From the NCBI GenBank assembly GCA_019247795.1, contig JAFBAK010000122.1, positions 1-40,496 of the forward strand: 40,496 nt of DNA, given 5' to 3'. The DNA is from Hyphomicrobiales bacterium. GTDB lineage: Bacteria; Pseudomonadota; Alphaproteobacteria; Rhizobiales; Beijerinckiaceae. Of this stretch, positions 1-37,249 are shown piece by piece; the stretch's first letter is position 1, and each line of letters opens with the position of its first letter. The notes under the pieces were generated by a model, which made no database searches, was not told where the DNA came from, and saw nothing but the letters and a program-made list of their open reading frames with translations. The position numbers were made by a program, and so were the translations under genes.

Positions 1-1107
1 GCGGTGCTGGTTCATCGCGTCTTGCGGACCGATCAGGTTGCGCACGAAGCCGTAATGGTCGCCGGCCTCGTCGACATGGACCGCGAAGGCGTCATAGCGC
101 GAGACCGTCTTGCCCTTCTCGTCGAAGAAGGGCGAGAGGCCGGCGCGCAAAAGCTCGGCGCCGGCGTAGAAAGCGAAGCGCCATTCGCCCTTGGCGCGAT
201 ACCAGTGCTCGACGAGACGAAGGCGCGTGCGCCCTTGCGACCAGAGATAGGCGCGGTCGAGATCGAACTCGGTCTCTCCCGTATCGTCGAGCGAGGAGAG
301 CGCCTCGTCCCATTTGCCGGGAAAGAGCTCGTCGAACTCGTCTTGCGTCACGAGCTTCGAGACGCCCATGTAGCGCGCGTCCGAGAAATCGAGCTTCAGC
401 GAACGCGGATCGTAGAAGAAGGTCGTGGCGTCGACGCTCGCGACATCGATGTCGGGATCGAGCTTGTCGCCCGCGACGATGCCGAGTTCAGCGATGACGA
501 TGCCGGTGCAGGCGCCCTTGCGCAAAGCCTCGGTCTCTTGCGCCGCGAAGCGCGACATGTCGAGGGCGTAGCGGATGCATTGCGTCGAAAGCTCGGCGCC
601 CTGCTCGTCATTCTCGACGCGTCCGACCGCCTTCGGATCGCCGCGCAGCTTCTCGAGAACGCCGACGAGGCCATCGATCTTGCGACCGATCCGGTTGAAG
701 GTGATGGCGGGCTGGCCGCGCGCCTGCAAGGTGTCGAGCTGCTCCTTCGTCCATTGATCGCCATGGTAGTAGCGCAAGGCGTTCCGCGCCTCGCGGATCT
801 CCGCCTGCTTGATCGCCACATAGTCGCTGAATTGCTTGCGCAGCTCGGTGATGTCGAGGGCGCCGTCGTCCTCGGGCGAGGGCGCATCCCCCGCATAATC
901 GTCATCATCGGGGAGCGGCGCTCGTGCCTGCGGCGAAGCTGCCTTCGCGCCGGCGGTTGCGGCAAGCCCCGTTCCGGCCAGCCCCGCGGGCGAGAGAGCC
1001 GGGGCCTGCCCGGCGGCCGAGAGCATCGCCATGCCGAGCAACGATGAGCCCGGCTGGCGAAGTCCCGGCGCGCCGAAGGGCAGGGCAGGTGTCGAGGGCA
1101 TGACCAT
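1..1107 (-). CDS. Phage portal protein, P22-like (N-terminal part, runs off left edge)
   Basis: Reading the minus strand from ATG at 1107 gives an uninterrupted frame to base 1, so about 369 codons are present and the C-terminus is outside the window. After a low-complexity Ala/Pro-rich start of about 60 residues, the protein has the P22-type portal pattern: a YYHGDQW segment, ITFNRIGRKIDGLVGVLEK, and near the window edge RNLIGPQDAMNQHR. Portals of this family form the dodecameric DNA-entry ring at the capsid vertex and dock the terminase. The start lies 8 bp past the stop of the terminase large subunit gene, with GAGAAG just upstream as ribosome binding site; the terminase-then-portal order is standard for tailed phages. 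The opposite strand carries a long overlapping open frame that I regard as a shadow. The portal call is strong from motifs and position; the exact subfamily is less sure. Confidence 0.85.
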   Translation of the reverse strand, partial: MVMPSTPALPFGAPGLRQPGSSLLGMAMLSAAGQAPALSPAGLAGTGLAATAGAKAASPQARAPLPDDDDYAGDAPSPEDDGALDITELRKQFSDYVAIKQAEIREARNALRYYHGDQWTKEQLDTLQARGQPAITFNRIGRKIDGLVGVLEKLRGDPKAVGRVENDEQGAELSTQCIRYALDMSRFAAQETEALRKGACTGIVIAELGIVAGDKLDPDIDVASVDATTFFYDPRSLKLDFSDARYMGVSKLVTQDEFDELFPGKWDEALSSLDDTGETEFDLDRAYLWSQGRTRLRLVEHWYRAKGEWRFAFYAGAELLRAGLSPFFDEKGKTVSRYDAFAVHVDEAGDHYGFVRNLIGPQDAMNQHR

Positions 1108-1115
1108 TCGGCTTC

Positions 1116-2612
1116 TCACAAGGTGTTGATGCTGACGCGCGGCTTTCGGCCGAAGCTCGAATAGCCGCGCATCGGCTGCGGCTCGGGAGGGGCCGGGCGC
1201 GCCGGCACATAGGGGCGCGACAGGCACGCGTAGCGAAGCTCGTCGGCCGCATGATCCTCCATGGTGGTGTCGAGGTCCTCCGGCCGATCGGGGTCGTGCT
1301 GCAGGAGCGGCAAGGTGCGGATGAGCGCGACGCAAGTCGAGAACACGAAGAGCATCGGGTGGGCGCCATCGCCCTTGAGCCGCGCGCGCACCGCCATCCA
1401 TCCCGACATCGCGCCGCGTTGGCCGACGCGGCTATTGTCCGCGGCGCGGAAACGCGGCCCCGTGTTGTTGTCGATCCGGCGCATCATCTCGGCGATCGAT
1501 GGCCCGCCGTTGTGCGCGAAGGCCGAAGGATCGAGCACGCCATAGGCGATCGTCTCGCCCTTCTCGCGCTCCTTGATGCCGTGCGCCACCTCCTCGGCCG
1601 AAAGCTTGAGGCCGGTGTTCGGAAAAGAAGCGCCATACCATTCGCGGTAGCGCACGAGCGCGCCGCGCGGGATCACGCGCTTCCCGCCAAGCGGATGCTC
1701 GTCACCGGCGACCGCCCACCAGCCGACCGAGAAGGGCGAGGCCGAGCCCCAATCCATGGCGCGCAAGCGAAGCCAATCGCGCGGCAGAGCGAAGGGCTCG
1801 ACCACATGGCGCGCCTCGCTCCATTCGTCGAAGAAGGCGCCCTCGACCGCATTCCAATCGCCGTCGAGCCAGGCGCGCACGAGCGCCTCCTTCCCGACGA
1901 GCTGCAGGCGATGCACGTAATTCGGATCGAGCTCGAGAAGCAGCTTGTTGTCGGATAGGCGCGAGGGGATCACGGCGAGCCTGTGAGGCGAACCGTCCGG
2001 CAGCGTCTTCGTCAGCACCCGCGGCGATTTCGGAAACGGCACCATCTCGTAGCGATCGCGGATCCAGCTTTGTCCGGGACCGCCCGGGTTGCCGGTGAGC
2101 ACGAGCTGCGTCGGCACGCCCGCCGAGGAGCGCAGCGCCCCGAAGAGGCGGAAGATCGGCTCAGGCGTCGGATATTGTCCGGCTTCCTCGATCCAGGCAT
2201 CGGTGAGGTTTCGGCCTTGGTATTCTTGCGCGTCGGCGACGCTGTCGAGATAGCCGAAGCCGATCCGCCCGCCATTCGGCATGCGCCAGACGAGCTTCGA
2301 TTGATTGAACTTGGCCCCGAGCGGCCCATAGATCTCTCTTGAGCGCTCGACCGCATCGGTGCTCGACACGGCGGTCCGCCGAAACATCATGGCGCTGAAG
2401 GCCGCGCCATAGCGCGCTTCCTTCAGGGCCCATTTGCCGAGCATCCCATCCGTCTTGCCGCCGCCGCGCGAGCCGCCGAAGAACACCTCGGCGAAGGGGC
2501 AATCGACGAGCGCTTTTTGCGGGCCGGGTTGCGGCTGCCAGACGATCTCAACGGGCTTTGGCGTATCGCTCTTCCCACTTCGCTTCCGTGATCGGTTCGC
2601 CGCTGACGACAT
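1116..2612 (-). CDS. terL: Phage terminase large subunit (packaging ATPase/nuclease)
   Basis: This is the motor that cuts concatemeric phage DNA and pumps it through the portal into the prohead. The 498-residue product has the classic arrangement. The Walker A loop GGSRGGGKT is at residues 46-54 and the Walker B with catalytic Glu in LTDAWIEEA at 136-144. The RNase H-like nuclease half shows Asp in AMDWGS (D287), Asp in VLDPSA (D361) and acidic residues near 453-457 in MEDHAADEL. The GDWNAVEGAFFDEW segment (251-264) between the halves is typical of the family. The length is normal. The annotated start overlaps the terS gene by 65 bp; residues 1-20 are basic and weakly conserved, so a later non-ATG start is possible. 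It lies between terS and the portal gene on the same strand. Confidence 0.93.
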   Translation of the reverse strand: MSSAANRSRKRSGKSDTPKPVEIVWQPQPGPQKALVDCPFAEVFFGGSRGGGKTDGMLGKWALKEARYGAAFSAMMFRRTAVSSTDAVERSREIYGPLGAKFNQSKLVWRMPNGGRIGFGYLDSVADAQEYQGRNLTDAWIEEAGQYPTPEPIFRLFGALRSSAGVPTQLVLTGNPGGPGQSWIRDRYEMVPFPKSPRVLTKTLPDGSPHRLAVIPSRLSDNKLLLELDPNYVHRLQLVGKEALVRAWLDGDWNAVEGAFFDEWSEARHVVEPFALPRDWLRLRAMDWGSASPFSVGWWAVAGDEHPLGGKRVIPRGALVRYREWYGASFPNTGLKLSAEEVAHGIKEREKGETIAYGVLDPSAFAHNGGPSIAEMMRRIDNNTGPRFRAADNSRVGQRGAMSGWMAVRARLKGDGAHPMLFVFSTCVALIRTLPLLQHDPDRPEDLDTTMEDHAADELRYACLSRPYVPARPAPPEPQPMRGYSSFGRKPRVSINTL

Positions 2613-20042: not shown

Positions 20043-20711
20043 TCAATATTTGATGAATTTTTCCGCAAGCGCGTGCCCATCGTCCCATGGTCGTCCCTTG
20101 AACATCCAGCCGATGCCGTCGATCCACAGCTTGCCAGGCAGGAGCGTGCCCTCCTTCAACTCGGTCGGCCTTTCCGCAAGATGAGCGCGCATGCGCGGGT
20201 CGTGGCGTGCCTTTTCCTCGATCACCGGCGGTTCGGCATCCATGTCGCCGAAGGTCTTGAGCACGGCGTTGAGGCTGCGATCGATCCGGTTCGTGATGGT
20301 GCGTTCCGAGCAGCCTTCGCGCCTTGCGATTTGCCAAAGCGGCACGCCCATCGACCAGCCGATGATGCGCTTCAACGCGAGCTCTCCCTCCACGCGTCGA
20401 AGCCAGGCCATCCACCCCATCACGATCTCCATGCGCGAGACATCCTCAGGGGAGGGTTGAAAGCCGCGCGCCTGAGCCGACGAGTAGCCATAGGCCTGGT
20501 TCATGTCGTGGATCACGGAAAACAACCACCCGCCACGCCTGAAGAAATGCAGGTCCGGATCGCGAAGCACCGACAGCGTTTGCCAGGCGCGCCGCACCAC
20601 CTCACGCAAGGAAGCGAGCATGGACTTGGGATCGATCGCGGGAAGGTTCGGCGCGGGTGGATTGGCGCCGGGCGTCGGGATCGGCTTGCGATTGGCTGTG
20701 CGTGAGATCAT
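20043..20711 (-). CDS. Phage-associated HTH protein resembling DUF6362
   Basis: This 222-residue product has a Pro-rich start and a central helical region ending in a helix-turn-helix like sigma region 4: MGWMAWLRRVEGELALKRI, then VPLWQIARREGCSERTITNR. I recognise the layout (AYGY, a PSPEDVSRME segment, a WLRR segment, then HTH) from DUF6362 proteins, usually found just before terminase genes in Rhizobiales prophages. The C-terminal 65 residues (KLWIDGIGWMFKGRPWDDG) have no assignment I know. ATG at 20711 is chosen; an in-frame TTG at 20726 is possible. It is transcribed leftward from a promoter embedded in phage operators. Confidence 0.6.
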   Translation of the reverse strand: MISRTANRKPIPTPGANPPAPNLPAIDPKSMLASLREVVRRAWQTLSVLRDPDLHFFRRGGWLFSVIHDMNQAYGYSSAQARGFQPSPEDVSRMEIVMGWMAWLRRVEGELALKRIIGWSMGVPLWQIARREGCSERTITNRIDRSLNAVLKTFGDMDAEPPVIEEKARHDPRMRAHLAERPTELKEGTLLPGKLWIDGIGWMFKGRPWDDGHALAEKFIKY

Positions 20712-20745: not shown

Positions 20746-20787
20746 ATCATTTCCCGGAAAGGGGAAGATCTCAACCCCTATTAGGGG
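20746..20787 (-). promoter_or_regulatory. Leftward phage early promoter with two operators
   Basis: On the minus strand: operator CCCC-TAATA-GGGG (20775-20787), then -35 TTGAGA (20774-20769). A 17-bp spacer follows that contains a second operator, CCCC-TTTCC-GGGA, centred at 20758. The -10 is AATGAT (20751-20746). The two operator centres are 23 bp apart. The layout aligns without gaps to the rightward promoter at 21404-21448. It should drive the HTH gene at 20711. Confidence 0.7.
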
Positions 20788-20811
20788 AATACAATTGAAT
20801 CGAAGATGTGG

Positions 20812-20834
20812 CATTATTCCCCTGCATGGGAAAT
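20812..20834 (+). promoter_or_regulatory. Operator overlapping the repressor start, likely PRM-like
   Basis: TTCCCC-TGCAT-GGGAAA at 20817-20833 has the same format as the other operators and covers the repressor ATG at 20826. CATTAT at 20812-20817 could be a -10 box with a poor -35 (ATACAA at 20789-20794), giving a transcript that begins almost at the ATG. A leaderless repressor mRNA from a weak maintenance promoter, shut by its own product, is the lambda PRM pattern; here it is an inference. Confidence 0.5.
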
Positions 20835-21395
20835 AATTTGAAACGGCTTCGGGCCGAGCACGGCTGGACGCACGAACAAGCGGCGCAAGCCATGGGCATC
20901 TCGCGCGGGCAATTCATCAAGCTCGAGCGGGGAGAGCGGCATCTCACCGAGCGCACGATCGGGCTTGCGGCGAAAGCCTTCGAGGTGAGCGAGGGAGACG
21001 TCATCGCCGACCGCGGCAGCGTGCCGCTCATCGGCCATGTGGGCGCCGGCGCCGAGGCCCATTTCTACGAGCAAGGGCAGGGGCCATTCGACGAGGTGCA
21101 GGCGGTCGAGGGCTCGAATGACGGGACGGTGGCGGTCGAGGTTCGAGGAGACAGCCTCGGCACGCTCTTTGACCGGGCGCTCGTCTATTATGACGATGTC
21201 CGCCGACCGGTTACGCCCGATCTCGTCGGCAAACTGTGCGTCGTCGGGCTTCCGGACGGGCGTGTCCTCGTGAAGAAGATCGCCAGGAGCAAAACCGGAC
21301 CCGATCTTTTTCACCTCGCGGGCCAATACGGAGATCCAATTCTCGACACGCCGATCGAATGGGCCGCGCGCGTCAAATTGATGGTTCCCCGTTGA
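20826..21395 (+). CDS. CI-like phage repressor, HTH plus S24/LexA-like domain
   Basis: The 189-residue protein has an XRE helix-turn-helix at about 4-58 (LKRLRAEHGWTHEQAAQAMG, then ISRGQFIKLERGER). An S24 peptidase-like domain starts near 67 and includes VPLIGHVGAGAEA, which offers an Ala-Gly bond as a possible self-cleavage site. Ser110 in EVRGDSLG and Lys150 in RVLVKKI match the Ser-Lys dyad. In LexA/CI relatives RecA-stimulated self-cleavage causes induction. The dyad context is variant (GDSLG rather than GDSM), so activity is likely but unproven. ATG 20826 is chosen over an upstream in-frame GTG because the HTH starts immediately. It sits between two outward-facing promoters with matched operators. 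Confidence 0.85.
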   Translation: MGNNLKRLRAEHGWTHEQAAQAMGISRGQFIKLERGERHLTERTIGLAAKAFEVSEGDVIADRGSVPLIGHVGAGAEAHFYEQGQGPFDEVQAVEGSNDGTVAVEVRGDSLGTLFDRALVYYDDVRRPVTPDLVGKLCVVGLPDGRVLVKKIARSKTGPDLFHLAGQYGDPILDTPIEWAARVKLMVPR

Positions 21396-21403
21396 GCTTT
21401 CTG

Positions 21404-21448
21404 TTTCCCCTATCAGGGGTTGACATATTGCCCTAATAGGGGAAATAT
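21404..21448 (+). promoter_or_regulatory. Rightward phage early promoter with two operators
   Basis: Operator CCCC-TATCA-GGGG (21407-21419) abuts -35 TTGACA (21420-21425). A second operator, GCCC-TAATA-GGGG (21430-21442), fills the 17-bp spacer, and the -10 is AAATAT (21443-21448). The operator centres are 23 bp apart, as in the leftward promoter. Repressor bound at either site would block polymerase. Transcription would start near 21455, before the small genes at 21490 and 21716. Confidence 0.75.
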
Positions 21449-35690: not shown

Positions 35691-35975
35691 ATGCTCATCC
35701 GTACTCCTGCCGACCTCGGCGCCGTCATCCGCGACCGGCGCAAGCAACTCAAGCTCGATCAGGCAGCTTTCGCCAAGCGCGTGGGCGTCAGCCGCCAATG
35801 GGTCATCGGGATCGAGCGCGGCCGCCCGCGTGCCGAACTCGCTCTGGTGCTGCGCGCCATCGATGTTCTCGGTATCCGGCTCGACGCGAGCATCGCGCCA
35901 ACGCCTCATCGTCCCCGGTCGGCGAGCGTGGACATTGATGCGATCGTAACGAAAGCCAGAGAGCCGAAGCCGTGA
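35691..35975 (+). CDS. hipB: HipB-like antitoxin, XRE family
   Basis: The 94-residue protein is one XRE helix-turn-helix (LGAVIRDRRKQLKLDQAAFA, then VGVSRQWVIGIERGRPRAE; about 9-50) with a short tail. HipB binds its own operators and holds HipA inactive. It overlaps hipA by 4 bp (GTGA), typical for toxin-antitoxin pairs. Confidence 0.9.
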   Translation: MLIRTPADLGAVIRDRRKQLKLDQAAFAKRVGVSRQWVIGIERGRPRAELALVLRAIDVLGIRLDASIAPTPHRPRSASVDIDAIVTKAREPKP

Positions 35976-37249
35976 ACGACGAGCTTGTGGCCCTTCTTGG
36001 CGGAACCGAAATCGGCCGCGTGCACCGCGACACACGCGGTCGCATCAGGTTCTTCTACGATGACGCATGGCGAACGGCCGCGGACGCCTATCCTCTCTCT
36101 TTGTCAATGCCACTGGGCGCCAAAGAGCATAGCCGCGCCATTGAGGCGTTCCTTTGGGGCCTCTTACCGGATAACGAACAGGTGCTCTCGCGCTGGGCCG
36201 CGCAATTCCAGGTCTCCGCGCGCAACGTCTTCGCGCTCATCTCGCGCGTCGGGCAGGATTGCGCCGGCGGGGTGCAGTTCGTTACGCCCGAACGCCTCGA
36301 CGCGATCCGAAACGGGAAGGAAGACAAGGTCGAATGGCTTGATGAAGTCGACATAGCGAAGCGCCTCGAAGTTTTGCGCCAGGATCACGCCGCATGGCGG
36401 CTACCGAGCGATACGGGGCAGTTCAGCCTGGCCGGCGCTCAGCCCAAGACGGCCCTGCTTCTGCAAGATGGGCGATGGGGCATCCCCTCAGGCCGCCTGC
36501 CGACGACCCACATCCTCAAGCCGCCGACCGGGCACTTCGACGGTCATGCCGAGAACGAGCATATCTGCCTCAAGCTGGCGCGAAGCTTCGGTCTGCCGGC
36601 CGCGGAATCAAGCGTCATGAAGTTCAAGAAGGAAGTCGCCATCACCGTTGAGCGCTACGATCGCCAACGCAAAGGCAATGACATTATCCGCGTGCACCAG
36701 GAAGATATGTGTCAGGCCCTTGGTATTCCGCCAACCAAGAAGTATCAGAATGAGGGCGGCCCGAGCGCCTTGGACATCGTGCGGCTTCTGCGCACCTACT
36801 CGACGAACCGCGAGACCGATATAGATACCTTCATCGATGCCCTTGGCCTCAACTGGCTCATCGCCGGCACGGATGCGCACGCCAAGAATTACTCGCTGCT
36901 CCTGGGCGGCGGCCGCATCCGTCTCGCGCCGCTTTATGACGTGGCGAGCATCGTTCCTTACGGCGAGTTTGACCTGCGCAAGTCCAAGCTCGCCATGAAG
37001 CTCGGCGGCGAATACAAACTCAGCCTCATCGGACTGCATCAATGGCAAAAGCTCGCACGCGAGATGCGCGTCGATGCCGAGGCGCTGATTGATCGGCTCG
37101 CAGGGATGGCCTCAAGGCTTCCCGACGAGGTGAACGCTGCTCGCGTACGGGCGCGTAAGGAGGGGCTCAACGCGCCGATCATCGAACGGCTGGCGGAGCG
37201 GTTGATCGAGCGCGCCAGGGCATGCCGAAAGTCTCTCGGATTAGCGTAG
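35972..37249 (+). CDS. hipA: HipA-like serine/threonine kinase toxin
   Basis: The 425-residue protein has the HipA N-terminal domain (1 to about 105) and kinase core. The loop FSLAGAQPK (151-159) includes the Ser that HipA autophosphorylates. Lys183 in THILKPP is the ATP-binding lysine. Asp301 and Asn306 in GTDAHAKNYS form the catalytic loop, and Asp323 in APLYDVAS binds the metal. E. coli HipA phosphorylates glutamyl-tRNA synthetase, causing growth arrest and persistence; this target is assumed only by homology. All key residues are present, so the toxin looks active. The start is GTG 35972, coupled to hipB. Confidence 0.92.
   Translation: MNDELVALLGGTEIGRVHRDTRGRIRFFYDDAWRTAADAYPLSLSMPLGAKEHSRAIEAFLWGLLPDNEQVLSRWAAQFQVSARNVFALISRVGQDCAGGVQFVTPERLDAIRNGKEDKVEWLDEVDIAKRLEVLRQDHAAWRLPSDTGQFSLAGAQPKTALLLQDGRWGIPSGRLPTTHILKPPTGHFDGHAENEHICLKLARSFGLPAAESSVMKFKKEVAITVERYDRQRKGNDIIRVHQEDMCQALGIPPTKKYQNEGGPSALDIVRLLRTYSTNRETDIDTFIDALGLNWLIAGTDAHAKNYSLLLGGGRIRLAPLYDVASIVPYGEFDLRKSKLAMKLGGEYKLSLIGLHQWQKLAREMRVDAEALIDRLAGMASRLPDEVNAARVRARKEGLNAPIIERLAERLIERARACRKSLGLA

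Follow-up and report, generated by a model that had tools for sequence, protein, structure and literature searches.

A probable lambda-like repressor switch of phage ancestry in the chromosome of an alphaproteobacterium

In phage lambda, the repressor gene lies between promoter/operator clusters that are read away from it, the operators are spaced by ~23 bp and one site lies at the repressor start. For Rhizobium phage 16-3 we take the operator word to be of the ACAA/TTGT type. This alphaproteobacterial temperate phage is described in one report (PMC12429752) as having a repressor with left and right operators, oL1, oL2, oR1 and oR2. From Caulobacter, two papers (PMC9632790, PMC11150451) describe RogA, a LexA/CI-like repressor of the gene transfer agent (GTA) regulators GafYZ, one of which is an antiterminator, together with two inverted repeats at the promoter; PMC9632790 presents RogA as being without the key cleavage residues and gives the promoter repeats as GGAA-N4-TTCC. 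Among the phage records searched, the closest in repressor sequence to the locus discussed here is the Mesorhizobium phage vB_MseS-P1 (PP232116.1), an inducible prophage with RcGTA-like genes. The available text of the literature searched on operators and immunity regions does not describe the layout that we report below, which is not proof of its absence. How does the present locus compare with these systems, and what could it be doing in a bacterial chromosome?

The locus lies in a window of 40,496 nucleotides (the whole stretch of DNA that was analysed) from a Hyphomicrobiales bacterium of the Beijerinckiaceae, whose genome is a 431-contig assembly with an estimated contamination of 3.8%. 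A sequence-only reading had proposed that a CI-like repressor of 189 aa (20826-21395, plus strand) sits between two operator-filled promoters, with 3+2 sites and one of them on the ATG, and the present analysis supports this arrangement. A pattern search recovered the five CCCC-N5-GGGG sites, to which no strand is assigned, at the centres claimed for them, with both outer pairs 23 bp apart. The promoters, each with one operator abutting its -35 box and a second one in its 17-bp spacer, were likewise found as described. On the left, the operator at 20752-20764 (centre 20758, one mismatch) lies within the spacer of the putative promoter TTGAGA-N17-AATGAT (20746-20774, minus strand) and the operator at 20775-20787 (centre 20781, no mismatch) abuts its -35 box. 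This PR-like promoter points towards the gene for a DUF6362 protein; its -35 (20774-20769) and -10 (20751-20746) boxes are 17 bp apart, and a consensus scan also picks it. The third operator of this cluster, at 20819-20831 (centre 20825, one mismatch), covers the repressor ATG and the codons Met-Gly, a position from which a near-leaderless repressor message, autoregulated through this site, may be supposed. On the right, the operator at 21407-21419 (centre 21413, no mismatch) abuts the -35 box of the PL-like candidate promoter TTGACA-N17-AAATAT (21420-21448, plus strand), directed towards P4 and P3, and the operator at 21430-21442 (centre 21436, one mismatch) lies in its spacer. The -35 (21420-21425) and -10 (21443-21448) boxes, again 17 bp apart, were read from the sequence; the consensus scan missed this promoter, its -10 being too weak for the scan. 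The gapless alignment claimed for the two 29-bp promoters is borne out, with 19 of 29 positions identical as counted by eye, and a repeat search found the repressor to be flanked by a 47-nt inverted repeat, 72% complementary.

Could an ordinary XRE regulator in GC-rich DNA simply have such palindromes around it by chance? Allowing at most one mismatch, the CCCC-N5-GGGG pattern occurs 20 times in the 40-kb window and 25.2 occurrences are expected, so that it is not over-represented, and at least five sites in 690 bp were present in 50 of 300 dinucleotide shuffles. Both figures favour chance, and because of them the number and density of sites alone prove nothing; site density was rejected as proof. 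It is the geometry, not the count, that goes beyond chance: one of 1500 shuffles had two pairs within 700 bp with a spacing of exactly 23 bp, and two of 1500 had two equally spaced pairs at any spacing of 20-26. Taken with the conservation of the sites in a sister species and the recurrence of the layout in the majority of 63 related loci (both described below), this spacing refutes the chance reading for practical purposes, and we regard it as scarcely credible. The 26-bp word formed by operator, -35 and operator, in which an operator half and TTGA precede an operator, has zero-mismatch matches in the 4.95-Mb assembly (G000) only at the two places in the window, and in the sister species (G002) only at the two orthologous places. 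Zero-mismatch matches are absent from the two other genomes of the genus (G001 and G003); among the matches listed for G001, fewest mismatches first, the best has one. Elsewhere in G000, the promoter-plus-operators word matches only with 1-2 mismatches (38 matches in the whole of G000, against 13 for the control). A regulon elsewhere in the genome was also considered and rejected: CCCCTANTAGGGG, with one mismatch, matches this locus only (3 forward matches against 13 for the reversed control). A looser palindrome gave 429 forward matches in the genome against 235 for its reversed control.

The repressor has, to judge from its predicted structure, the two-domain CI/LexA fold, with an N-terminal helix-turn-helix (HTH) domain (residues 1-63) followed by a LexA/CI (S24) domain. 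Pfam finds HTH_31 (E 1.5e-10) and HTH_3 in it, with Peptidase_S24 slightly below the cut-off. In the AF2 model (pLDDT 87), residues ~1-64 match the P22 c2 and 434-type HTH at Z 9.4-10.8, other HTH proteins reaching up to 11.2, and residues ~60-189 match the C-terminal domains of lambda CI and LexA at Z 9.3-10.4. What about cleavage? A74, G75, S110 and K150 are invariant across 32 aligned sequences. We take A74-G75 to be the cleavage site expected for the S24 family, and S110 and K150 to be the catalytic pair. As these residues are present and invariant, self-cleavage after DNA damage would be expected of this protein.

Is the locus a phage immunity region, as had been claimed? Phage ancestry holds up: the repressor is 56% identical to that of vB_MseS-P1, in which operators stand at corresponding places, some of them degenerate. 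An ordinary prophage it is not. The first leftward gene is DUF6362 and not cro, the neighbours are chromosomal, synteny and purifying selection are seen in the sister species, and the locus belongs to a divergent repressor/DUF6362 unit present in other genera. The DUF6362 protein (222 aa; 20043-20711, minus strand) matches PF19889 at E 2.3e-13, and four other minus-strand open reading frames in the place where cro would be expected matched no regulator family. Among the window proteins scanned, which do not amount to a systematic search, there is no integrase or replication gene. To the right of the repressor follow P4 (21490-21714, plus strand), a small open reading frame of 74 aa whose first 43 codons are conserved in the sister species, and P3 (21716-22114, plus strand; ~132 aa); neither belongs to a Pfam or NCBIfam family. 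The nearby genes on either side are chromosomal (aminotransferase, EamA, Ldh_2). Further along the window, at 35691-37249, a HipB-like HTH protein is followed by a HipA-like one (HipA_C, Couple_hipA), an ordinary HipBA toxin-antitoxin pair.

What would the leftward promoter control? The AF2 model of the DUF6362 protein is good in the core only. In one fold comparison with VIA-align, the top four entries are all phage 21 Q (Z 9.4-10.1 over 103-122 residues, rmsd 2.3-4.5), values that helical models can reach without kinship, and the next rows are sigma region 4 at Z of 7.0 or less. Foldseek returned nothing with E below 0.001, a viral fold library likewise; the profile gave a probability of 0.2% against K-12 QuuD, and the best match of the sequence to PDB chains (E 0.011) is not Q. 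The modelled likeness to the phage 21 antiterminator Q is thus suggestive only. The gene lies before a terminase in four genomes, that of the window not being among them; this place fits a late regulator, and we give about even chances to the DUF6362 protein being an antiterminator or similar late activator. Neither it, nor its homologue in G043, nor P3 has a match in the phage collection searched, and DUF6362 is not mentioned in the literature searched.

Comparison with the sister species G002 offers a view of what selection has kept. Over 4.9 kb the two loci are colinear, and 77% of their nucleotides are identical. All five operators are retained, with one of 40 arm positions changed against seven of 25 core positions (Fisher p 0.004); the sole arm difference gives G002 the symmetric form of that site, and the outermost left operator (centre 20758) keeps its arms and changes its core. 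The leftward -35 reads TTGACA in G002, and the rightward promoter is conserved. The repressor is 95.8% identical and has the lowest dN/dS of the 13 genes compared, 0.026, a value that is low partly because dS is high (1.04); its dN of 0.027 is also low, and only one transporter gene is lower (0.021). Within the repressor, the HTH domain is the more constrained part (98% identity, dN/dS 0.015; 94% and 0.033 for the remainder). The DUF6362 gene has a dN/dS of 0.072 at dS ~1, the terminase 0.106, P4 0.042 over 43 codons and P3 0.33; the eight other genes compared range from 0.040 to 0.148. DUF6362 is present in all four genomes of the genus searched. The search for an empty site in G003 ran into contig breaks within the locus: DUF6362 is at the edge of one contig and P3 at the edge of another. 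A scan of genome contigs with P0001 matched the G002 locus only. By these sequence comparisons, the locus is syntenic and under purifying selection in the sister species. This bears on the idea that it is the decaying and now functionless remains of an integrated phage. Such a remnant would account for the terminase and portal genes of phage type that share its contig, for the phage-like repressor and for the weak constraint on P3; the dN/dS values of the repressor and DUF6362, the five sites kept, the synteny with G002 and the presence of DUF6362 in all four genus genomes searched all speak against it. Because of this constraint, we consider a functionless remnant improbable.

Where else does this layout occur? 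The repressor matches five of 50,697 records of the phage collection at E 1e-5, the best, over its full length, being vB_MseS-P1. A scan for paired sites around CI genes elsewhere, suggested by the sequence-only reading, was run and came out positive. A profile scan of viral contigs gave 147 relatives, the best 80 of which were examined with nine further loci. Of these 89, the N-terminus was covered in 75, and the upstream regions were distinct in 63, mainly from viral contigs. Among these 63 loci, 44 have a leftward TTGAC at the expected place, and in 51 a single palindromic word accounts for three or more upstream sites; in 54 the word score was reached by at most one of 20 shuffles. Enough sequence was present in 56 loci to look, with the word learnt upstream only, for a pair spaced by 22-26 bp within 1.5 kb after the stop codon; 31 have one, whereas trials with foreign words gave 98 in 2384 (4.1%). 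Of these 31 pairs, 25 enclose a TTGAC (counting L034, seen in sequence). Words in the survey include CCCC, ATGCA, TGCCC, TACCA, GCACA and others. In sites and pairs, the window and G002 match this surveyed alphaproteobacterial 3+2 family; the leftward -35 of the window has TTGAG. On a 53.8-kb plasmid of Rhodoplanes serenus (L039:3986-4597), a repressor of 50% identity has GTACCC-type sites and, by annotation, phage-like neighbours.

Twelve of the 63 loci share the CCCC operator type: the window, L005, L006, L034, L120, L121, L125, L127, L129, L171, L185 and L195. All 12 have a protein that starts Met-Gly-Asn and a third operator whose centre falls at -1.5 to 0 relative to the ATG; that protein start is found in none of the 51 other loci. 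The first codons may thus double as an operator half-site. In the nine CCCC-type loci with three sites scored, the second and third operators are 42-45 bp apart, and the first and second are spaced by either 23-24 or 33-34 bp, two values that differ by about one helical turn. The word score was reached by more than one of 20 shuffles in L034 (2/20), L121 (16/20) and L185 (2/20). The survey found the downstream pair in nine of the 12, and a tenth, L006, has it at 25 bp; none was found in L120 and L121. Nine of the surveyed CCCC-type loci come from viral contigs or phage records, as would suit a stand-alone superinfection immunity in which the host keeps the repressor to silence incoming phages with CCCC operators; the higher conservation of the HTH domain would suit it too. 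This proposal leaves unexplained the conservation of DUF6362 and the divergent arrangement with other operator words in other genera, and we think it unlikely.

This divergent arrangement is not confined to the genus. DUF6362 matches with E below 1e-20 occur in 11 of 100 related genomes, and in 10 of the 11 a repressor match lies within ~1 kb, divergent from DUF6362; the eleventh is G003, with its contig break. In G043, G038 and G024, the module comprises a GcrA-like gene (a weak match, below the Pfam cut-off), DUF6362, the repressor and P3; the repressor is preceded by three GGTA-N4-TACC-like sites and P3 by two (by eye). P3 homologues come after the S24 repressor in these three genomes and lie elsewhere in G047. 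G012 and G052 have three sites before the repressor, no P3 and no site found after it (by eye). In G006 and G047, the sites are of the TGCCCA type (by eye), and the repressor frames are shorter (175 and 150 aa) and have a window-like HTH (52 and 49% identity over 63 residues). G001 has TAGCG-type sites (by eye). Repressor and operators thus differ together across these genomes, as read by eye, and the layout stays. Several details can be added. In G001 (L064:7708-9672), the repressor next to DUF6362 is another S24 protein, with sites of the TAGCG type, and there is an additional gene of 150 aa; TRAP-transporter-like genes are adjacent (by eye) and P3 is 25 kb away. Second DUF6362-type genes, with no adjoining repressor match, occur in genus g4 (L117, G006:C25:23000-35000; L116, G047:C3:3615000-3627000). 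GcrA-like genes recur beside such switches (L034:4251-4571, L075:7995-8336), being annotated in vB_MseS-P1 and weakly matched in G038 and G043.

Are there genes left for the switch to control? About 17 kb from it, the window holds a phage terminase large subunit (1116-2612, minus strand; PF04466 E 1.7e-6, phrog_979 E 3.9e-30), a putative target of the switch, and the N-terminal part of a P22-like portal protein (1-1101, minus strand; PF16510 E 2e-51, phrog_156 E 7.2e-46), which runs off the contig edge. Genes of the ABC transporter, Nramp, NfeD, EamA and aminotransferase kinds separate the terminase from DUF6362. At the terminase cluster there is no zero-mismatch copy of the CCCC-type promoter word, so control of that cluster by the switch could only be indirect. 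The terminase is found in three of the four genus genomes (92% identity in G002, 75% in G001) and not in G003, and has weak matches in two of 96 other genomes. In G001, at a distance of 46 kb from DUF6362, it is the first in a run that includes portal (phrog_156), capsid (phrog_334), head closure and ejection-like genes; this cluster carries transposase-like open reading frames (by eye). A second terminase, at least 60% identical to that of L205 (61-75%), is present in seven of the 100 relatives, 72 others having only a weaker match, and in none of the four genus genomes (G000-G003). These seven are exactly the non-genus genomes with a DUF6362 match at E below 1e-20. It lies within ~2.5 kb downstream of DUF6362 in G012, G024, G043 and G052, and elsewhere in G038, G006 and G047. 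The cluster continues in G043 with portal (PF04860), protease-like, head-tail adaptor and endolysin-like genes, and that of G012 has a tail protein.

Such distributions recall a domesticated GTA-like element with dispersed parts, in which the repressor would restrain a Q-like activator of a distant head-gene cluster, as RogA does with GafYZ. This would be a stronger form of the explanation that we prefer. It draws on the coincidence of the L205-type terminase with strong DUF6362 matches in the same seven genomes, on the other terminase shared by three of the four genus genomes, with its fuller head cluster in G001, and on the logic of RogA/GafYZ as given in PMC9632790 and PMC11150451. The transposase-like frames of the G001 cluster point the other way, and the cluster could be an old prophage. 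We hold the GTA-like form to be a real possibility, if short of probable.

Our preferred reading is that a phage-type CI switch has been captured and kept by the host chromosome, where it would act by the steps set out next, and we hold it with good though not full confidence. The sequence feature is real and would in all likelihood work like the lambda immunity region. We see in it a likely case of a phage switch that has become fixed in the chromosome and governs a phage-derived element with dispersed parts, possibly GTA-like; it probably represses genes that a virus left behind. In the mechanism that we envisage, a repressor dimer would bind one operator that is present five times. To the left it would fill the spacer and block the -35 of the DUF6362 promoter; on its own start codon it would repress its own, probably near-leaderless, message; on the right it would likewise block the P4/P3 promoter. 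After damage, activated RecA would stimulate self-cleavage of the repressor (A74-G75, S110, K150) and both promoters would be released. The next step would fall to DUF6362, possibly a late regulator resembling Q21, which would activate phage-derived late genes, for example the terminase/portal cluster ~17 kb away. What the sequences themselves show are the sites, promoter-like sequences, a predicted fold, conservation, a layout shared with phage loci, and linkage; binding, cooperativity, RecA cleavage, antitermination and structural-gene control are steps that we infer.

More speculatively, several genera of this Hyphomicrobiales family may share a stripped-down lambda circuit in which a CI-like repressor directly restrains a Q-like antiterminator, with no cro, within domesticated GTA-like elements whose parts are scattered, and in which repressor and operators are swapped as a unit between lineages (CCCC, TGCCC, GGTA, TAGCG), the layout being kept. 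We offer this generalisation tentatively and are inclined to doubt it; if true, it would be a second GTA control circuit, parallel to RogA/GafYZ, with direct induction by damage. The locus is of interest as a copy of a widespread alphaproteobacterial phage switch that is fixed in a chromosome and has phage-derived genes linked to it. It also connects this repressor and operator word with a wide family of such switches. As the layout is kept and the operator word changes with the DNA-binding domain, specificity may be readable from sequence, and the surveyed loci provide a ready set of heteroimmune pairs for learning how repressors change operators. If chromosomal copies control linked phage genes, they would offer a testable route to damage-induced particles, of which we found no report in these bacteria.

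How, then, does the switch stand among known systems? With lambda, it shares the OR/OL layout, in which operator clusters and outward-reading promoters flank the repressor gene, an operator spacing of ~23 bp, a site at the start of the repressor and, as far as the models go, a repressor with a CI-type HTH and a C-terminal domain of the cleavable type. Unlike lambda, it has 3+2 sites, DUF6362 and not cro, the CCCC-N5-GGGG word, and operators that abut the -35 and fill the spacer; because a cro gene is absent, we do not count it as a lambdoid member. Like phage 16-3, it has an alphaproteobacterial phage-type repressor with left and right operators, and 16-3 differs in having two right operators. 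It differs from RogA in its invariant S110 and K150 and in its neighbours, DUF6362, P4 and P3; the likeness to RogA/GafYZ would lie in a repressor holding down regulators. The score of vB_MseS-P1 comes from two upstream sites only and is reached by two of 20 shuffles. Its record is that of a complete phage, with genes annotated as CII-like and integrase and a small HTH gene in the cro position (gp12); small HTH genes stand in the place of cro in vB_MseS-P1 and L006, unlike in the window. The two also share several features: the repressors align over their whole length, an operator of the same type covers the ATG, the leftward promoter region has TTGACG with a degenerate operator in its spacer, and after the repressor stop a TTGACA abuts one operator and has a degenerate second one in its spacer (by eye).
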